DNA of 64,000 bases from Flavihumibacter cheonanensis (GTDB lineage: Bacteria; Bacteroidota; Bacteroidia; Chitinophagales; Chitinophagaceae), in NCBI RefSeq assembly GCF_022352215.1, contig NZ_JAKRWF010000001.1, positions 1,054,001 through 1,118,000 of the forward strand. Direction: 5' to 3'. Both the position numbers and the translations under genes were made by a program. Positions 23,163 to 31,364 of the stretch are shown in pieces. Each line of letters begins with the position of its first letter. The first letter of the stretch is position 1. The notes beneath the pieces are model-generated. The model searched no databases. It was not told the origin of the DNA and was given only the letters and a program-made list of their open reading frames with translations.

Positions 23163-24932
23163 TCAGGGCTTTGCGAACTTCAACTGCGATTCAAGCGCAG
23201 CTAACAAATAGATAAGAGATGCTGTTCCATCCATGGTAGGTTCATTGGTGGAGTAATCACCATAATCATCATGATACACTACCAGGGAACTTTGGAAAGG
23301 CGCATATTCATCCTCGTTAAATAATTTGATACCGATAAGGTTACCATAGATGGAACCATAAACAGGTCCGTCTACCAGTCCGCCATCTATGGGATAATTT
23401 TTCAGATGTGTAAAAGCGGAATGCGGATCCACGGGTGTATCACCCCAGGAAGGCAATCCATACACCATGCTGGTGCCCCAGGGATTCATGCCAAAGAGCC
23501 AGTCGATATTGGCTTGCGTGAGTGCATCGTATTTGGCATCACCGGTCAGTTGTTTGTACCAGATACCCTGGATGGCGAGTGAAGTAGTCAGGTTATTACT
23601 GCACCAGATAAAAGGTACGCCCCGGTGGAAAGCGTTTTGTTTTGCTTTCTGCCAAACCGATTCGAGTCCCTGTTGGTAATAAGATAATACAGTTGCGCGC
23701 TCTGTCCCGGTTGCTCTTTTGGCCAGTTCAAAATGTCCCAGGTTGATAAAAGGATACCACTGGTAATGATGCGCGGTATCTTTTCCCAGCCAGGGAGTGA
23801 TGGGTTCCTGTTGCGCATAGGATAACGCATCAGAAAGTTTATTGAGTTGGGCGGCTGCCAGTTCCATATCATCAACCCAATTATCTTCTGCATAGATATA
23901 AGGAGCTTTTACAGAAGCAGTTTGTGTAACCCCAGGTTTGATCAGCGCGTATTGGTAGGCGGTAGTAGCTTTTTCAGTCAGCAGCTTACTGTAGGATAGG
24001 TTGTTATGCTGAAACAGGGTTGCTCCCAATGAAAAAGCAGAAGAAAGTTTGGCGGCGGTGGAAGAAGTGCCTTTTGTATTATTCAGGAATTTTCCTCTTT
24101 GTTGTGGTTCACCATTGATAAAATATACCGGGCGTTCATAACCTCGGCCATACTGGCTGTCAAGAGCTGGCATTCTTAATGAGATATGATCACGGTCATC
24201 GGCGATCTGGTTGAACATCCAGTCTGGCCGCGGGTGCATTTTAAGCAACCAGTCTAATCCCCATTTGGCTTCATCCATCACATCCGCAATTCCATTTTTG
24301 CCATCGAGTCCGTTTGCCTGTTTGGAATCAGTGAAGGCAGTTGGAAAATCGCGATAAGCCATCAGGAGATGATAGGTAGCATTGGCGGAGGTGGTGGCAT
24401 ATTGCAGGTAATCCGTGGCATCATGCCAACCACCAACAACATCAATATGGGTGCTGTCGGGCATGGGACCATACAGCGTATAACCATCCCTGGTATGGCA
24501 ACTGTCTTTCAGGAAGGGATTGAAACCGGTACGTTGCTGGCGCATGTAACGCAGGCAAAAATCAGCGCTTCCTTTATACGCCGTATCGGAAATTACAAAT
24601 TCCGGTGAGCGGGCCTGCCCTGCTTCCAGGTAATAACGGCCTGGTTTTTTAAAAGCAGAAAAGTTCAGGCGATAGGATTGTTGAAAGGGACCATAGGCAC
24701 CGAATGCAGTGCCGGCTTTACCGGTAAAGACTTTTTTTCCGGTAGCCACATCCACCAGTTGAAAAGTGGAGATCGATTGATTTTCTTTGGATGCCCATAC
24801 AGCAGCCTTGGTACCCTGGGGAAGATAACCGAGTTGGTTGATCCGGATCCAGCTGGTTGGATTGGACTGTTGGGTGGCCATCCAGCCAATAAAAAGCAGT
24901 GCAAGGGGCAAAAGAAAAAGCAATCGTTTCAT
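23163..24932 (-). CDS. Glycoside hydrolase family 9 protein with N-terminal Ig-like domain
   Basis: The 589-residue exported protein begins with a hydrophobic signal or anchor (residues 3-19), then an Ig-like CelD_N domain (IRINQLGYLPQGTKAAV, about 28-112), then the (alpha/alpha)6 GH9 catalytic domain. The catalytic aspartates fit GGWHDATDY (Asp171 and Asp174, usually DAGD) and the acid Glu564 lies in STNEPTMDGTA. LFGMNPWGTSMVYG is also typical. Family members are endoglucanases or exo-acting glucosidases/glucosaminidases. The DATD variant and Bacteroidota context mean cellulose should not be assumed. No SusC/SusD pair is nearby, so this is not a PUL. Confidence 0.88.
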   Translation of the reverse strand: MKRLLFLLPLALLFIGWMATQQSNPTSWIRINQLGYLPQGTKAAVWASKENQSISTFQLVDVATGKKVFTGKAGTAFGAYGPFQQSYRLNFSAFKKPGRYYLEAGQARSPEFVISDTAYKGSADFCLRYMRQQRTGFNPFLKDSCHTRDGYTLYGPMPDSTHIDVVGGWHDATDYLQYATTSANATYHLLMAYRDFPTAFTDSKQANGLDGKNGIADVMDEAKWGLDWLLKMHPRPDWMFNQIADDRDHISLRMPALDSQYGRGYERPVYFINGEPQQRGKFLNNTKGTSSTAAKLSSAFSLGATLFQHNNLSYSKLLTEKATTAYQYALIKPGVTQTASVKAPYIYAEDNWVDDMELAAAQLNKLSDALSYAQQEPITPWLGKDTAHHYQWYPFINLGHFELAKRATGTERATVLSYYQQGLESVWQKAKQNAFHRGVPFIWCSNNLTTSLAIQGIWYKQLTGDAKYDALTQANIDWLFGMNPWGTSMVYGLPSWGDTPVDPHSAFTHLKNYPIDGGLVDGPVYGSIYGNLIGIKLFNEDEYAPFQSSLVVYHDDYGDYSTNEPTMDGTASLIYLLAALESQLKFAKP

Positions 24933-24966: not shown

Positions 24967-27768
24967 CTAAAATACTGAAAATTGCTTCTTTTTCTCCTGT
25001 ACTGATTTGCCTGCCCCGGATGGGATCAGGTTAATAGGCAGAATAAACTGCCAGCGATTGGAGCCCATACCACCCATGCGATCGGGATCTAACAGGTAGG
25101 CATAGCGAATACCAAAGCTAACAGGTAACTGGTTCCACCACCGGGTATCAAAATAACATTCGAGTCCGGTTGATCTAAAATTAATCCAACCGGATTGCCT
25201 GAACAGTTGCGGATCTTTTGCCCTGGCCCAGTCGAAGTAAGCAGCTGCCCGCACGCGAAGCAGGTAGACAATTTGTGCGAGTCCGGCATCCGGATAAGCA
25301 ATCGGGAAATGGTAACTGATTCCACTGCGCTGCATGCGGAACAGGTTGAGGGTTTCATATCCCCGTGCAAAAGGGAAATTATTGCTGAATCGAATACCTG
25401 GCAGACTATCGCGACCACCAATTGCCCAACCCAGCACCAGGCTGTGATTGCGTGCGAATCCCGGGAAATACTGATTACCGGCAGCTAACCATTGCCGTGA
25501 GGAGTACCGATTAATGGCATTTCTGAATTGTATGCGAATGGTACCGGCCCACTTGGGAAAGATCTGCTGTCGGGCTTGCTGTGATTGAATAGCAAAAACC
25601 AACTGGTTATTCAGGTAGGAATAGGAACGATTGCCCAGGGAATCTTTTTCCGGTAACCGGAACCAGGGTTGATTGAAAACAAAATCGGATGAAACAATAA
25701 GGGAACTGAACTGCCTGCCGCTGCTCAGGTTCAGGGGCAATTGTAAACCGGCAGTTAGTTCCAGTTCATTCCAGCGGATGGTTCGATTGCGAAAAAGGGC
25801 CTGCCGGTTGAAGGTGTAATCGAAACCTGCCCGGATATAAGGAAAGAAACCACCAAAGACCGACTGGACGCCCAACCTGGTAAAGCCTTCATTTCGGTTG
25901 TAGGTGGCAGATAGATTGGTCTGGAAATTATTCAACAAGTTTTGGGAGTGGGCAGTCAGACTGAATTCAGGTTCCTCGTACCAGGGTGTCCAGCTATGAA
26001 AATTTAAAAAACCACTGATATTTTTATAAGGTTTGATTTTCAGGGATGTATCTGTTTGATAACTTAGAAAGGATATAGGTGCCTCATTATATTGAGAACC
26101 TTCCTGCTGAATCATGGGCAGGGCCAGGACTTGTTCTGCAGGAATCCATTCCTTTACTGTAACAGGATTTGTATTTAGCTTATAGCCATGCGCTGTAAAC
26201 TGCATGCTGGTGAAGGCCTGATTAAGTACAGTTGGCTGGTAGTTGCCCGTAAGCCGGTTGACGGTTTCCAGCAAAGCCAGTTTGTCATCATGGTAGAGTA
26301 CTGTCTGATCGCGGTTATTGACCGACATGGTGAAGAAAACCGAGTCGCCTACCGGCATAGGATAACCGATAATATGGTTGGACCAGTTAAAGAGAGCTTT
26401 GTGTTCACTGGTTACCAGGTCAATAGAATGAATGGTCATTTCTCCTTTTCGGTTCCTGCTGGCCGTTAGTACTGTGTTTTTAGCAAATCGGGGAAAGGAA
26501 TAGATATAACCTGAATCATTCGGAAATTCTTTCAGCAGTTTCCCATCGGCAGTCAATAAATGAAGGGAGGATTTACCGGTCGCATCCTGCAGAACGGCAA
26601 TAATGGAATCTCCGCTTGAGGAAAGCGCTGGCGTGAAATAAGTGGCGTGGGTGGTAATACGATCCTGTTTGCCGGATTGAATATCCAGCAATTTCAAATC
26701 TGAATAATCTCTCCATCCCCAGCGGGTATCAGGCTGGTATGCCGCATAGAGGATCTTACCATTGGCATAGGAAAAATAGGAATCCAGGCTTTGATCGCGC
26801 ACGCGGATCTTTTTCTCCTCACCTGTTTTTAACCTCAAATAAAATGCAGGTAATTCAGCATAACTAGAGCGTAGATACAGCAAGTCGCCATTTTCTGTGT
26901 ACACCGGATTTTCTTCATTGACAACCGGCTGAAACTTTCCGGTGTCCTGATTCAGTTCCAAGGCTTTCTTCCGAAACTCTTTGAATGTTATACCGCTATA
27001 TTGATTAACCGCTTTTTGAAAAGGATAAAATACACCTTTCATGGCGGCAGCATCATTGCTTACTTTATCCCAGAAAAAAAGTCCGTATTGTTGTTGGCCA
27101 TATTGAAGCAACAGGTAACCCAACTGGTAATGATTGGGGGTAAAATCGCGCAGGGATCCATTGCGCAGTTTCTGATACGAATACTGTTTGCCTGCTTCCT
27201 GAAGTGCATTCCAGGCATTGAAGAAAGAAGGCATACGCCCCCTGCCCTGCTCACTTAACAGGGTTTCCTGAAACACGGCATCCCCTTCAAAAAACCAGTC
27301 GGGGATGGTAATAGCATTCGCGAGTGCCTGTCCCTGTTGCCCTAACAGGAATCTGAAAACTTTTGCACCACCCCGGTTAAACCGAAGGTATTGTTGAAAA
27401 TGTCGCTGCTCGTGCAGAGCCAGTTGTTCCGGCCAGTTCAGACTGCCCAACTCAAACCCATTGATGGGGGCAGTCATATACCATTCACTGCGCAGAGGTG
27501 CCAAAGCCACATACCCGTTTGATTGGGTGGTATGGTGTTGAAGTAGAACGGGGACTCTCCTGGTTAATGGAAAAGCAGCAGCACTGTCAATCTTATCCAT
27601 GATAGAGGCCACGCGCAAGGCGGTGGAATCCCATCCGGTTGGGAAGATGACCTGGGTACGGGGCGACTTAATCTGTAACCAGCGCTGGTTAAGGGGATGG
27701 CCACCGAATTGCTGGGCATCAGCAGTTAAGAACATAAATCCGAATAAAAAAAGCAGTAGCCCTCGCAT
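24967..27768 (-). CDS. Large secreted protein: gluzincin-like peptidase domain, beta-propeller and beta-barrel
   Basis: The 933-residue protein has a signal peptide (MRGLLLFLFGFMFLTADAQ). Around residues 110-165 it shows HEQRH (H119-E120-x-x-H123) followed by WFFEGDAVFQE with Glu161, the arrangement of an HExxH zinc site with a distal Glu (peptidase MA-like fold). Residues about 280-520 look like TolB/WD-type blades (repeated YSF/SxDG/LxLLDIQSGK patterns). From about 590 to the end, alternating aromatic strands (FPYIRAGFDYTF, LNLFRMQRSGISYHF) and a final FILPINLIPSG suggest an outer-membrane barrel. I do not know a characterised protein of this architecture. Proteolytic activity is inference. 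Confidence 0.65.
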   Translation of the reverse strand: MRGLLLFLFGFMFLTADAQQFGGHPLNQRWLQIKSPRTQVIFPTGWDSTALRVASIMDKIDSAAAFPLTRRVPVLLQHHTTQSNGYVALAPLRSEWYMTAPINGFELGSLNWPEQLALHEQRHFQQYLRFNRGGAKVFRFLLGQQGQALANAITIPDWFFEGDAVFQETLLSEQGRGRMPSFFNAWNALQEAGKQYSYQKLRNGSLRDFTPNHYQLGYLLLQYGQQQYGLFFWDKVSNDAAAMKGVFYPFQKAVNQYSGITFKEFRKKALELNQDTGKFQPVVNEENPVYTENGDLLYLRSSYAELPAFYLRLKTGEEKKIRVRDQSLDSYFSYANGKILYAAYQPDTRWGWRDYSDLKLLDIQSGKQDRITTHATYFTPALSSSGDSIIAVLQDATGKSSLHLLTADGKLLKEFPNDSGYIYSFPRFAKNTVLTASRNRKGEMTIHSIDLVTSEHKALFNWSNHIIGYPMPVGDSVFFTMSVNNRDQTVLYHDDKLALLETVNRLTGNYQPTVLNQAFTSMQFTAHGYKLNTNPVTVKEWIPAEQVLALPMIQQEGSQYNEAPISFLSYQTDTSLKIKPYKNISGFLNFHSWTPWYEEPEFSLTAHSQNLLNNFQTNLSATYNRNEGFTRLGVQSVFGGFFPYIRAGFDYTFNRQALFRNRTIRWNELELTAGLQLPLNLSSGRQFSSLIVSSDFVFNQPWFRLPEKDSLGNRSYSYLNNQLVFAIQSQQARQQIFPKWAGTIRIQFRNAINRYSSRQWLAAGNQYFPGFARNHSLVLGWAIGGRDSLPGIRFSNNFPFARGYETLNLFRMQRSGISYHFPIAYPDAGLAQIVYLLRVRAAAYFDWARAKDPQLFRQSGWINFRSTGLECYFDTRWWNQLPVSFGIRYAYLLDPDRMGGMGSNRWQFILPINLIPSGAGKSVQEKKKQFSVF

Positions 27769-27824: not shown

Positions 27825-28532
27825 ATGGAATTGTTGGCCCTTGCATTGGCTCCCGGTATCGCGATCATGTGGTTTATTTATTCAGCAGATAAACTGGAAA
27901 AGGAACCACTGAAAGCGTTGATTATTTCATTTTTATTAGGGATGCTGGCAATATTGCCCACTTTGCTGGCTGAAACTGCCGGGGTTCACCTGCTGGATCA
28001 GCTTCTGCCCAAAGAGGGATGGCTTTATTACAGTTTACTCGCTTTTGTAGTGGTGGCTTTTACAGAAGAACTGATGAAGTGGCTGATGGTTCGTGTGTAT
28101 GCCTACAAGCGCGCTTTTTTCAATGAACCCTTTGATGGCATCGTGTATGGCGTGATGGTTTCTATGGGATTTGCCACGCTTGAAAATATCGGTTATGTAT
28201 TACAGTTTGGCTGGCAAACCGGTTTGATGCGAATGGTATTGGCGGTTCCGGCCCATGCCACCTTTGGTGTATTGATGGGGTATTATTTTGGGCTGGCGCG
28301 ATTCGTGGGAAAGGAAAGGGAATGGGGCCTCAAGATCAGGGGACTTCTCTTAGCTGTTCTATTTCATGGCCTGTACGATCTGTTTCTGTTGGTTCAGCAG
28401 GACAATACGATCACCGCCAGGGTCTCCTCCGGCCTGCTTTTTGGAACAGCGGTACTTTCCTTTTTGGTGGCAGTAAAACTTTCCTGGCAAGCCATTAAAT
28501 TGCATCAGGAAATTGCGTTAAAAAATGAGTGA
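27825..28532 (+). CDS. PrsW family intramembrane metalloprotease
   Basis: A 235-residue integral membrane protein with about seven to eight helices. It has the PrsW motifs EELMK (EExxK, in VAFTEELMKW), HATFG, and FHGLYD, which together form the zinc site of this CAAX/ABI-related family. PrsW in Bacillus starts cleavage of the anti-sigma factor RsiW; the target here is not known and no sigma/anti-sigma pair is in the window. The stop overlaps the start of the GNAT gene by 8 nt, so the two are translated from one mRNA. Confidence 0.85.
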   Translation: MELLALALAPGIAIMWFIYSADKLEKEPLKALIISFLLGMLAILPTLLAETAGVHLLDQLLPKEGWLYYSLLAFVVVAFTEELMKWLMVRVYAYKRAFFNEPFDGIVYGVMVSMGFATLENIGYVLQFGWQTGLMRMVLAVPAHATFGVLMGYYFGLARFVGKEREWGLKIRGLLLAVLFHGLYDLFLLVQQDNTITARVSSGLLFGTAVLSFLVAVKLSWQAIKLHQEIALKNE

Positions 28533-29025
28533 AGCATTAGTTATTAGAAGTGCGGACGAGGATGATATTCCAACCATCGGTTACCTGGCACATACCATCT
28601 GGCCGGAAGTATACAGTTCCATTATTCCACAAGAGCAGATTCAGTATATGCTTAAGCTGATGTATAGTCCGGATTCGCTGGAGCAGCAGATGGGAACCCA
28701 GGAACACCAGTTTATCATTGCTGAAATTGAAGGCCAGGAAGTTGGCTTTGCAGCCTATAGTAAATTGAAGGACGCAACCTGGAAATTACACAAGCTCTAT
28801 GTACTGCCCTCCATGCATGGGAAAGGAATTGGTCGCGCTTTACTGGATATGGTAGAAGAAGAAGTGCGCACCCATCAGGGCGCGCACCTGGTTCTGAATG
28901 TGAACAAACAAAACAAAGCTGTTCGGTTTTATACTTCCATGGGCTTCGAAATTGAAGAGGAAGTTGTCCTTGATATTGGTAATGGGTTCGTCATGGATGA
29001 TTATATCATGGGGAAGGATGTTTAG
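28525..29025 (+). CDS. GNAT family N-acetyltransferase
   Basis: A 166-residue single-domain GCN5-related acetyltransferase. The acetyl-CoA binding motif A is LYVLPSMHGKGIGRALLD (Q/RxxGxG/A as HGKGIG), followed by LNVNKQNKAVRFYTSMGFEIEEE, the usual motif B. It is full length and has no signal peptide. The 8-nt overlap with the PrsW-family gene suggests coupled expression. The acceptor, whether protein or small molecule, cannot be told from sequence. Confidence 0.88.
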   Translation: MSEALVIRSADEDDIPTIGYLAHTIWPEVYSSIIPQEQIQYMLKLMYSPDSLEQQMGTQEHQFIIAEIEGQEVGFAAYSKLKDATWKLHKLYVLPSMHGKGIGRALLDMVEEEVRTHQGAHLVLNVNKQNKAVRFYTSMGFEIEEEVVLDIGNGFVMDDYIMGKDV

Positions 29026-31364
29026 TTTCCTCTGCGTTCTGGTCGGGAGTTTCCTCCTGGATTCCTTTGTCCACCACCACCATTCGGCCGGCCCTGGTTA
29101 CCACCAGATGGACGAGATGGTGCTTCTCTTCTAATTTCCGGCCTGCGTTGTTGAGGTTCATTTCGGCTGATCTGCGGGCGACCTGAACGTTCCATTCTCT
29201 CCGGACCACTAGGCCGGGTGATTGGAGCTCGTTGTCCCGGTTGATTCTGTGGCCGGTTTCCTGTATTACCCTGGTTCCCCTGGTTACCCGGACGATAAGT
29301 TCTGTCGGGCCGGTTGGTATTGCCATAACTATTATTGCGGTTGGGATTCACCCGGCCAGGTTCTGTAGTTCTGTTAGGAGTATTGTTCCGGTTATTGTAT
29401 TCGCGATCTCTGTTGCTACCATAATAATTCCGGTTGGGCCTTACACCTGGATTGGAGTTACCATTGTAGCGATCATTGTTGTTCCTGTTATTGTAATTAC
29501 CGGAATAATTACCACCGTAATATCTGCGGTTATCCCTGGTAGTTATAGCAGGCCTCGAATGATAGACATTGTTGTACCGGTAGTTACGATAATTGTTTCC
29601 GTAATAATAATTGTTTACAATCAGGGTGTTGTTTCGGTATCCATAATAGCCATAGTGACGATAGCGGGGTGCGCAATAAGCGGGGCGATATACTGAAGGA
29701 CCCCACCAGCCACCATGCCAGTGATTCCAGGGGCGATGGTAACCATATCCCACATTAAACCAGCCGGTACGATAGCCAAAACCGATTGACCAGCCATACC
29801 AGGGGGTATAGTGCATATTGAAACCCCAGGTAAAAGGTCTTGGATAATAATAGCGGCGGAACCAGGGACGATAATAAAATCCGGTACCATATACTACGGT
29901 AGGACCATAAACAAAAGTATTCAGGTAACCCGGGGTATATCCCATATAGATGTAATCCGGATGCACATCATAGATATACACATATTTGACAGGATAAACC
30001 GGGTAACGGGCAGGGATCAGATCCACTTCATCCGGACGAACAGTACTCACTACCCAGGGACCATTAGGAGCTCCTGACTGGAACCATACTCCATTGTCTA
30101 CCAGGTAATACCTGCGTTTATAGCGAATTACAGTTGCGTTTGTATTGACTGCATAATCCATGCGGGTACCTTCAATGGATTGAAATTCCGGATCACCATC
30201 ATAGTCAACCGAAGCGGTAGCAGTTCTTCGGTCAACCTTGGCCGTTTGAGGAAGCTCGGCATCCATCAGCGCATTGCGGGATGCAGGGGTATTCGGCACA
30301 CTGGCTAATACATTGTCTTTAGGAGAACCTACGGGAATATTGGCAAAATCCTGTGGCAACTGTTCGGCAGGAATATATTGCCAGTTTCCTTTTAAAGATG
30401 CAGAACGATACCATCTTCCAGAAAGGAGAACATAATATTGTTGTGAATTCACATCCATGAACAATTCATTCGGTGAATTCTCTACGTATAATAGATTGGT
30501 ATTGGAGATAGGACTAAAGTCAGCTTCTCCCCTGCTTTGAATCAGTTCAGCAGGTTCGGTACTTACGAGCACTTCTGCAACCGGACCTTTGTATTCATCT
30601 TCATCAAACTCTGAATCAAATTCTGGTTTTTCAGCAGTCTCCTGGCTCTTTTCAGCGTTTGCTTTAACATCCGCAGCAATGCGATCCAGGTTAGAAGGTG
30701 GATTGGCAGTATAGGTAAAGGACTGATCCAGCCGGTTGGCTGAATACCAGTAATTGCCTCCGTAGATATGGATTTTCCCATTGCTTTTCACAATGGTATT
30801 GGGTGAGTTCACCACTGCTTCAACGCCCCAGTTCTCATTCTTTTGCCAGATGGGATTGCCATCTACGATTACCAGCAAACTGGGTTTATCCCGATAGATG
30901 AGTTTGGGAGGTTTGTTATTGAAATCGCCGGCCAGTTTTTCTTTTTGCTGTTGCAATTCCAATCCCTTTTTCAGCTGGTCTTTGGAAAACAGGACGCGCT
31001 GTTCAGGAATAGCCTGCTCGAGATCCCTGGAGAGACGGCCTGTTGTAGCTTCGTCTATTTCGGCTGGAAATTTCAAAGCCGAGACCGTCATCCGCATAAA
31101 ACGCTCATAAGAACCTTGTTCCTGGGTGTAGGCAGTTGCCCATAAGGTCCCAAAAACCGGTTCGCCGGATTCATTGCGATAGTAGGCTACCGCAGATTGA
31201 AAGACCAGTTCACCGGAGTTGTGCCTGGTGGGCTGAGGTTCATACACTTTAAGGCGATCGCCCCCTGAAAGGTCAAAGCTGACCGGCCAGGATTGGGCAA
31301 AACTTCCGGTTGCAGTCACGAGGAAGGCAAACAGGAAACCGGAAAATAGGTAAAGCTGGCGCAT
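29022..31364 (-). CDS. Exported hypothetical protein with Tyr/Trp-rich and Asn/Arg/Gly-rich low-complexity C-terminus
   Basis: A 780-residue protein with a signal peptide ending GSFAQ. Residues about 25-430 are ordinary in composition and contain two or three short repeats built around a tyrosine-rich strand pair (QQYYVLLSGRWYRS, KRRYYLVDNGVWFQS) followed by GxW. Residues about 440-560 are dominated by Tyr, Trp, Pro and Gly (FYYRPWFRRYYYPRPF). The last 220 residues are Asn/Arg/Gly/Pro-rich with almost no hydrophobic residues and look disordered. The family is not recognised. The repeats may bind carbohydrate or the cell surface; this is a guess. The 3' end overlaps the GNAT gene by 4 nt. Confidence 0.7.
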   Translation of the reverse strand: MRQLYLFSGFLFAFLVTATGSFAQSWPVSFDLSGGDRLKVYEPQPTRHNSGELVFQSAVAYYRNESGEPVFGTLWATAYTQEQGSYERFMRMTVSALKFPAEIDEATTGRLSRDLEQAIPEQRVLFSKDQLKKGLELQQQKEKLAGDFNNKPPKLIYRDKPSLLVIVDGNPIWQKNENWGVEAVVNSPNTIVKSNGKIHIYGGNYWYSANRLDQSFTYTANPPSNLDRIAADVKANAEKSQETAEKPEFDSEFDEDEYKGPVAEVLVSTEPAELIQSRGEADFSPISNTNLLYVENSPNELFMDVNSQQYYVLLSGRWYRSASLKGNWQYIPAEQLPQDFANIPVGSPKDNVLASVPNTPASRNALMDAELPQTAKVDRRTATASVDYDGDPEFQSIEGTRMDYAVNTNATVIRYKRRYYLVDNGVWFQSGAPNGPWVVSTVRPDEVDLIPARYPVYPVKYVYIYDVHPDYIYMGYTPGYLNTFVYGPTVVYGTGFYYRPWFRRYYYPRPFTWGFNMHYTPWYGWSIGFGYRTGWFNVGYGYHRPWNHWHGGWWGPSVYRPAYCAPRYRHYGYYGYRNNTLIVNNYYYGNNYRNYRYNNVYHSRPAITTRDNRRYYGGNYSGNYNNRNNNDRYNGNSNPGVRPNRNYYGSNRDREYNNRNNTPNRTTEPGRVNPNRNNSYGNTNRPDRTYRPGNQGNQGNTGNRPQNQPGQRAPITRPSGPERMERSGRPQISRNEPQQRRPEIRREAPSRPSGGNQGRPNGGGGQRNPGGNSRPERRGN

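Follow-up and report, generated by a model that had tools for sequence, protein, structure and literature searches.

The 64,000-nucleotide stretch of the Flavihumibacter cheonanensis genome analyzed here (the window) encodes a 933-residue protein predicted to be an outer-membrane protein in which a peptidase domain, a TolB-like propeller and a BamA-like barrel follow one another in a single chain (Table 1). The full-chain AlphaFold2 model, made with 29 sequences, has a pLDDT of 84 and a pTM of 0.83. A preliminary description had read an HExxH domain, a propeller and a barrel from sequence patterns. The model and the fold matches uphold that reading: the helix carrying the motif, the helix of E161, the propeller and the C-terminal barrel are all present in the predicted structure. 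Domain order, folds and the conserved catalytic set are supported by computation.

Table 1. Features of the protein and its downstream neighbour, in window coordinates.
Feature	Residues	Window positions	Strand	Basis
Whole gene	1-933	24967..27768	-	ORF list, ATG to stop exact
Signal-peptide-like start	1-18	27715..27768	-	By eye, without lipobox Cys; pLDDT <50 at 1-19
Gluzincin-type peptidase domain	20-277	26938..27711	-	Fold match and profile link to sister family
HEQRH	119-123	27400..27414	-	H119, E120 and H123 in 55/55
WFFEGDA, with E161	158-164	27277..27297	-	E161 in 55/55
GRGR, family signature	175-178	27235..27246	-	G175, R176 and G177 in 55/55; R178 in 48/55
Y214, candidate transition-state tyrosine	214	27127..27129	-	55/55; aligns to Tyr607 of collagenase G
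Six-bladed TolB-like propeller	280-541	26146..26931	-	DSSP, VIA and profile
Linker (48 residues)	542-589	26002..26145	-	Model
16-strand BamA/Omp85-like barrel	590-911	25036..26001	-	Model, VIA and Foldseek
RGY, strand 11-12 loop	802-804	25357..25365	-	R802 and G803 at least 90% conserved
GH9-family gene, 34 bases downstream		23163..24932	-	PF00759, 9.2e-66

Sequence searches with the single protein assign it to no known family. It matched zero Pfam and NCBIfam families at the thresholds used and nothing in PADLOC (E up to 1) or PHROGs (E up to 0.01), and a PDB sequence search returned three rows, the best at E 0.2. Matches to the protein were found in 30 of the 59 genomes searched, the F. cheonanensis genome itself counted in. 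A genome of the same genus (G004) encodes a protein that is 95% identical across its length.

The N-terminal domain was also modelled alone, from 55 sequences (pLDDT 88.8). Its top VIA match is lugdulysin of family M30 (Z 13.8, 219 residues aligned, rmsd 3.7); further matches include a Grimontia collagenase (Z 13.6), clostridial collagenase H (12.9) and E. coli aminopeptidase N (12.6). The best 50 rows (Z 13.8-11.4 over 209-223 residues) hold lugdulysin, collagenases, which we take to be M9, aminopeptidases, presumably M1-type, and one TFIID chain, and they place the domain in the gluzincin fold. Foldseek gave a best E of only 1.1e-3, with a TFIID chain in the top row. Because the Foldseek match is weak and ranks that chain first, we take the link to be one of shared fold and conserved active site, not of close kinship.

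Conservation was tabulated at 19 positions of the domain in 55 aligned sequences. H119, E120, H123, E161, G162, A164, E168, G175, R176, G177, Y214 and G217 are invariant, and HExxH is retained throughout at N-domain identities as low as 20%, so the HExxH motif with a distal Glu that marks gluzincins of clan MA(E) is found in every one of these sequences. Judged from this alignment, conservation of HExxH exceeds chance. HExxH is also present in all 80 loci of a second collection, which shares some genomes with the first (L127 is the contig of L002); since EGDA was itself a seed of that scan, only its HExRH count adds a test.

A PDB sequence search with the N-domain found collagenase G as its best match, at a non-significant E of 0.29. 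In that alignment H119, E120 and H123 fall on His523, Glu524 and His527, E161 on Glu555 and Y214 on Tyr607. According to excerpts of the respective papers, His523, His527 and Glu555 are the zinc ligands of collagenase G (PMC9304777) and Tyr607 is contacted by inhibitors in the active site (PMC9574867). Excerpted work on Grimontia collagenase also records that its active-site variant Y564A lacks activity; Tyr564 may or may not be the counterpart of Tyr607. In the window protein, H119 and H123 would be zinc ligands and E120 the catalytic residue, with E161 the likely third ligand. A cluster of H119, H123 and E161 at one site is plausible from the gluzincin fold match and the collagenase G alignment. 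The earlier suggestion of a zinc site made up of HEQRH and the distal Glu of WFFEGDA is supported as plausible. At E up to 10, 23 Pfam families are matched by the 55 N-domains; BSP, Peptidase_M9 and Peptidase_MA_2 are not among them.

Two sister families extend this picture. Scanning 29 genomes, F. cheonanensis included, with Peptidase_MA_2 gave no match above the cut-off and none at all in the F. cheonanensis genome, and yielded the proteins L109 and L122. L109, from a 1021-aa frame, has the same domain order and four PD40 stretches; it passes the Pfam cut-off for BSP (25.5 vs 23.8 bits), with Peptidase_M9 (2.2e-4) and Peptidase_MA_2 (2.9e-4) under their cut-offs. The N-domain profile scores 84 and 87 against two sister-type profiles (eight controls: 12.6-17.4), and four reversed or column-shuffled controls for the score of 84 gave 13-17. 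Both motifs are in register in the printed profile alignment, and at profile level the kinship of the N-domains between families is clear.

The third family, found by a search from L122, has lost the motif: HExxH is missing in all 15 members with residues aligned there. These propeller-and-barrel paralogues (L122, L237-L248, L250 and L253), which come from the same taxonomic family, order and class and have HExxH replaced, are apparent pseudopeptidases. The motif-less profile scored 56.8 (controls 20-22), a value given no weight here, since L252, among its 16 rows, is a wrong gene part and one of the four control scores duplicates the preceding one exactly and may be spurious. In a tree made by a quick method on the N-domain plus a portion of the propeller, with a midpoint root, the family of the window protein (17 rows) lies on one side of a branch with support 100. 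The 15 motif-less rows group together (support 100) within a 41-row group (support 94) that also holds 26 HExxH keepers. As all 15 fall together, HExxH was probably lost once, in the motif-less clade, and in no sampled member of the window protein's family. The F. cheonanensis genome has one motif-less paralogue (L267:1232-4802, contig C186) in overlapping frames of 405 and 805 aa, a split apparently due to a frameshift or assembly error. In relatives from two other genomes (G061 and G065) the open frame is 1530 aa, some 400 aa above most.

The propeller is of the six-bladed TolB type. DSSP assigns 24 strands to residues 283-543 of the model, that is, six blades of four; VIA aligns 232 residues with TolB (3iax, Z 21.8, 2.7 Å); and the propeller profile matches a TolB chain at E 2.4e-8. 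Of 29 members, 14 match TIGR02800 with an E of 0.01 or lower; the window protein is not one of these. TolB is a soluble protein with its own kind of N-terminal domain. The TolB of Tol-Pal was ruled out as the identity of the window protein, which has a gluzincin fold at its N-terminus and a barrel C-terminal to the propeller.

Sixteen strands were counted in the barrel model over residues 590-909, leaving out the short pieces 578-581 and 828-830. VIA matches it to BamA of Deinococcus (8xnb, Z 20.0, 294 residues aligned, rmsd 4.3 Å) and to the BAM of Flavobacterium johnsoniae (Z 19.9), with BamA, TamA and BAM rows at Z 18-20, and Foldseek matches it to chain A of a BAM complex (6.3e-8). As modelled, it is thus a 16-stranded barrel of the BamA type found in the Omp85 superfamily. 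An RG(F/Y) motif in loop 6 is an Omp85 hallmark, and the loop between strands 11 and 12 is the place of loop 6. R802-G803-Y804 lies there, aligned to the Omp85 motif through a weak hhalign match.

Sequence comparison of the barrel gives less. PF01103 matched none of 29 full-length and none of 53 barrel sequences, and a PDB search with the barrel profile returned no rows. Against an Omp85 profile made of six proteins from the F. cheonanensis genome, the barrel profile scored 25 (five controls: 8-12). It reached 12-24 with single Omp85 proteins of that genome, and comparison with the barrels of the two sister families gave 16 and 18. The sister barrels themselves score 71.5 and 67.7 against the same Omp85 profile. 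Given its low profile scores, the barrel is by sequence neither clearly Omp85 nor clearly homologous to the sister barrels; its Omp85 assignment rests on the modelled fold, the strand number and the RGY loop. The same genome has six PF01103 matches (L051-L056), one of them under the cut-off.

No POTRA domain appears in the model, where the gluzincin domain is followed by the propeller and then by the linker. A POTRA domain is larger than 48 residues, and the modelled linker is too short to house one. One published definition of the Omp85 superfamily includes at least one POTRA domain (PMC11116518, excerpt), and POTRA-less subfamilies have been accepted in another (PMC4104836, excerpt). With no POTRA domain, the window protein is not classed as a classical Omp85.

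Several known systems share parts of this build. Clostridial and Vibrio collagenases (M9) and lugdulysin (M30) have the gluzincin fold, and the His/His/Glu/Tyr positions of collagenase G align with those of the window protein, but the sequence match is non-significant (E 0.29) and we know of no barrel in these enzymes. In E. coli, BamA, BamB and BepA assemble outer-membrane proteins and control their quality. Between them they have a barrel, a propeller and a periplasmic zinc peptidase acting on outer-membrane proteins; there, however, these are separate proteins, and BepA, as a functional analogue (PMC8423444, excerpt), is likened by role. PlpD, the patatin-Omp85 protein of type Vd secretion, also has an enzyme N-terminal to a 16-strand Omp85 barrel (PMC11116518, excerpt), but the enzyme is a patatin lipase and a POTRA domain is present, where the window protein has a peptidase and a propeller. 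A type Vd autotransporter was rejected as the identity of the window protein, which has no Pfam match to patatin and a gluzincin fold instead. PF00149, which we take to be a phosphoesterase family, differs from the HExxH peptidase predicted here. It is the domain of the 'Metallo' Omp85 subfamily, termed a metalloprotease-Omp85 fusion in the excerpted text of PMC4104836. The WD40-Omp85 subfamily is described there as POTRA-less, with TolB as its nearest propeller, and is likened to a BamA-BamB fusion (Heinz and Lithgow, 2014). By fold, the window protein shares its N-terminal TolB-like propeller, its Omp85-type barrel and its lack of POTRA; the subfamily, compared by description, apparently differs in that the main text of that paper does not contain the word 'peptidase'.

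The preliminary description had called a protease tethered to its own barrel unusual, which was half right. The build is frequent among matches in the phylum, and the WD40-Omp85 subfamily was already published (PMC4104836, excerpt). What this analysis adds is a gluzincin-type domain at the N-terminus, the finding that it is fully conserved, and the clade of paralogues lacking the motif; the fusion of propeller and Omp85 was known. Among the literature matches listed, which covered few subscription papers, no title or abstract beginning names a protein joining an HExxH peptidase, a propeller and an Omp85 barrel.

From the sequence matches, the build of peptidase, propeller and barrel recurs across the phylum, in many Bacteroidota; the tallies of 143/198 and 142/148 take in matches that are partial or confined to the propeller, and do not measure how often the architecture occurs. 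No conserved partner gene emerged among the neighbour clusters of 100 loci, partly from the same genomes. The largest clusters, judged by eye, are DnaK-like, valyl-tRNA synthetase and other synteny, and look like housekeeping or lineage-specific synteny. The GH9-family neighbour was rejected as part of a system: of 20 relatives' loci, 5 have it and 15 lack it. Long ORFs resembling TamB by eye in L048 and L050 were rejected as a general feature (2 of 20 loci). On the other side of the gene, at 27825-28532 of the window, lies a divergent PrsW-family gene, and 12 of 20 relatives have a match to it in the vicinity of the peptidase gene. At 29022-31364 the window encodes a 780-aa protein; judged by eye, Asn, Arg, Tyr and Gly are abundant in its last third.

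In Omp85 proteins both ends of the barrel and the N-terminal domains lie in the periplasm; an even number of strands puts both barrel ends on the same side. The enzyme-Omp85 fusion PlpD was earlier taken to deliver its lipase to the surface (PMC4104836, excerpt). When its topology was tested the enzyme was found in the periplasm, and its homologue FplA is described in the same excerpt as undetected on the surface (PMC11116518). Because of Omp85 topology and the PlpD precedent, the periplasm is the default location for peptidase and propeller, and the peptidase probably faces it. Since the linker could in principle thread the barrel, a surface location keeps some probability. The words 'exposed' and 'surface device' in the preliminary description find no support in an Omp85-type fold, whose N-terminal domains are periplasmic, as is the PlpD enzyme (PMC11116518, excerpt).

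We propose, with moderate confidence, that the protein is a protease tethered to its barrel and facing the periplasm, where it would serve in the quality control or maturation of outer-membrane proteins. It would be secreted via Sec and its C-terminal Omp85-type barrel seated in the outer membrane, with the propeller and the gluzincin zinc peptidase hanging from the barrel into the periplasm. The propeller would present or recognise clients close to the barrel, and the peptidase would cut them; the likeliest clients would be outer-membrane proteins or lipoproteins that have misassembled, or else precursors awaiting maturation. A single chain would then unite what E. coli keeps apart as BamA (Omp85 barrel), BamB (propeller) and BepA (periplasmic metallopeptidase). 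Zinc binding, activity, periplasmic side and client class are what we infer.

It is for this likeness to BamA, BamB and BepA that we prefer quality control or maturation to a secretion factor, a surface protease or a dead scaffold. In the first of these the barrel would insert or export particular clients that the peptidase trims en route, which we consider doubtful. The BamA-like fold would suit such a role, as would the sister barrels' match to the Omp85 profile (71.5 and 67.7), but the window protein's own barrel profile scores just 25 against it, the 100 loci have no conserved client gene adjoining, and the POTRA domain, with which BamA binds its clients, is absent. A surface-displayed protease in the manner of type Vd, with the barrel or BAM passing peptidase and propeller outside to digest the polymers or proteins of others, seems unlikelier still. 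Secreted enzymes (lugdulysin, collagenases) are among the nearest solved folds and a GH9 gene adjoins in 5 of 20 relatives; against this, 15 of 20 have no adjoining GH9 gene, Omp85 N-terminal domains are periplasmic and PlpD was shown to be so (PMC11116518, excerpt). Least probable, in our judgment, is an N-domain that no longer cuts and now serves as a binding platform. The paralogous clade that lost HExxH (15 of 15 members with residues aligned there) gives a precedent, but the window protein's family is unlike that clade in keeping five catalytic positions in 55 of 55 sequences.

One published account presents a Bacteroidota BAM complex as a new paradigm (PMC12611786, excerpt), and another counts the metalloprotease and WD40-like members of Omp85 among those not yet well characterised (PMC11116518, excerpt). 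A more speculative extension, to which we give a low probability, is that Bacteroidota share a phylum-wide 'protease-in-one' Omp85 set that surveys outer-membrane protein assembly at the barrel and cuts failed clients, with the motif-less paralogues as chaperone-like counterparts. Should the peptidase prove active and located in the periplasm, an Omp85 scaffold would bear a quality-control protease of its own, and paralogues with and without the motif would offer a ready-made test of what proteolysis contributes.
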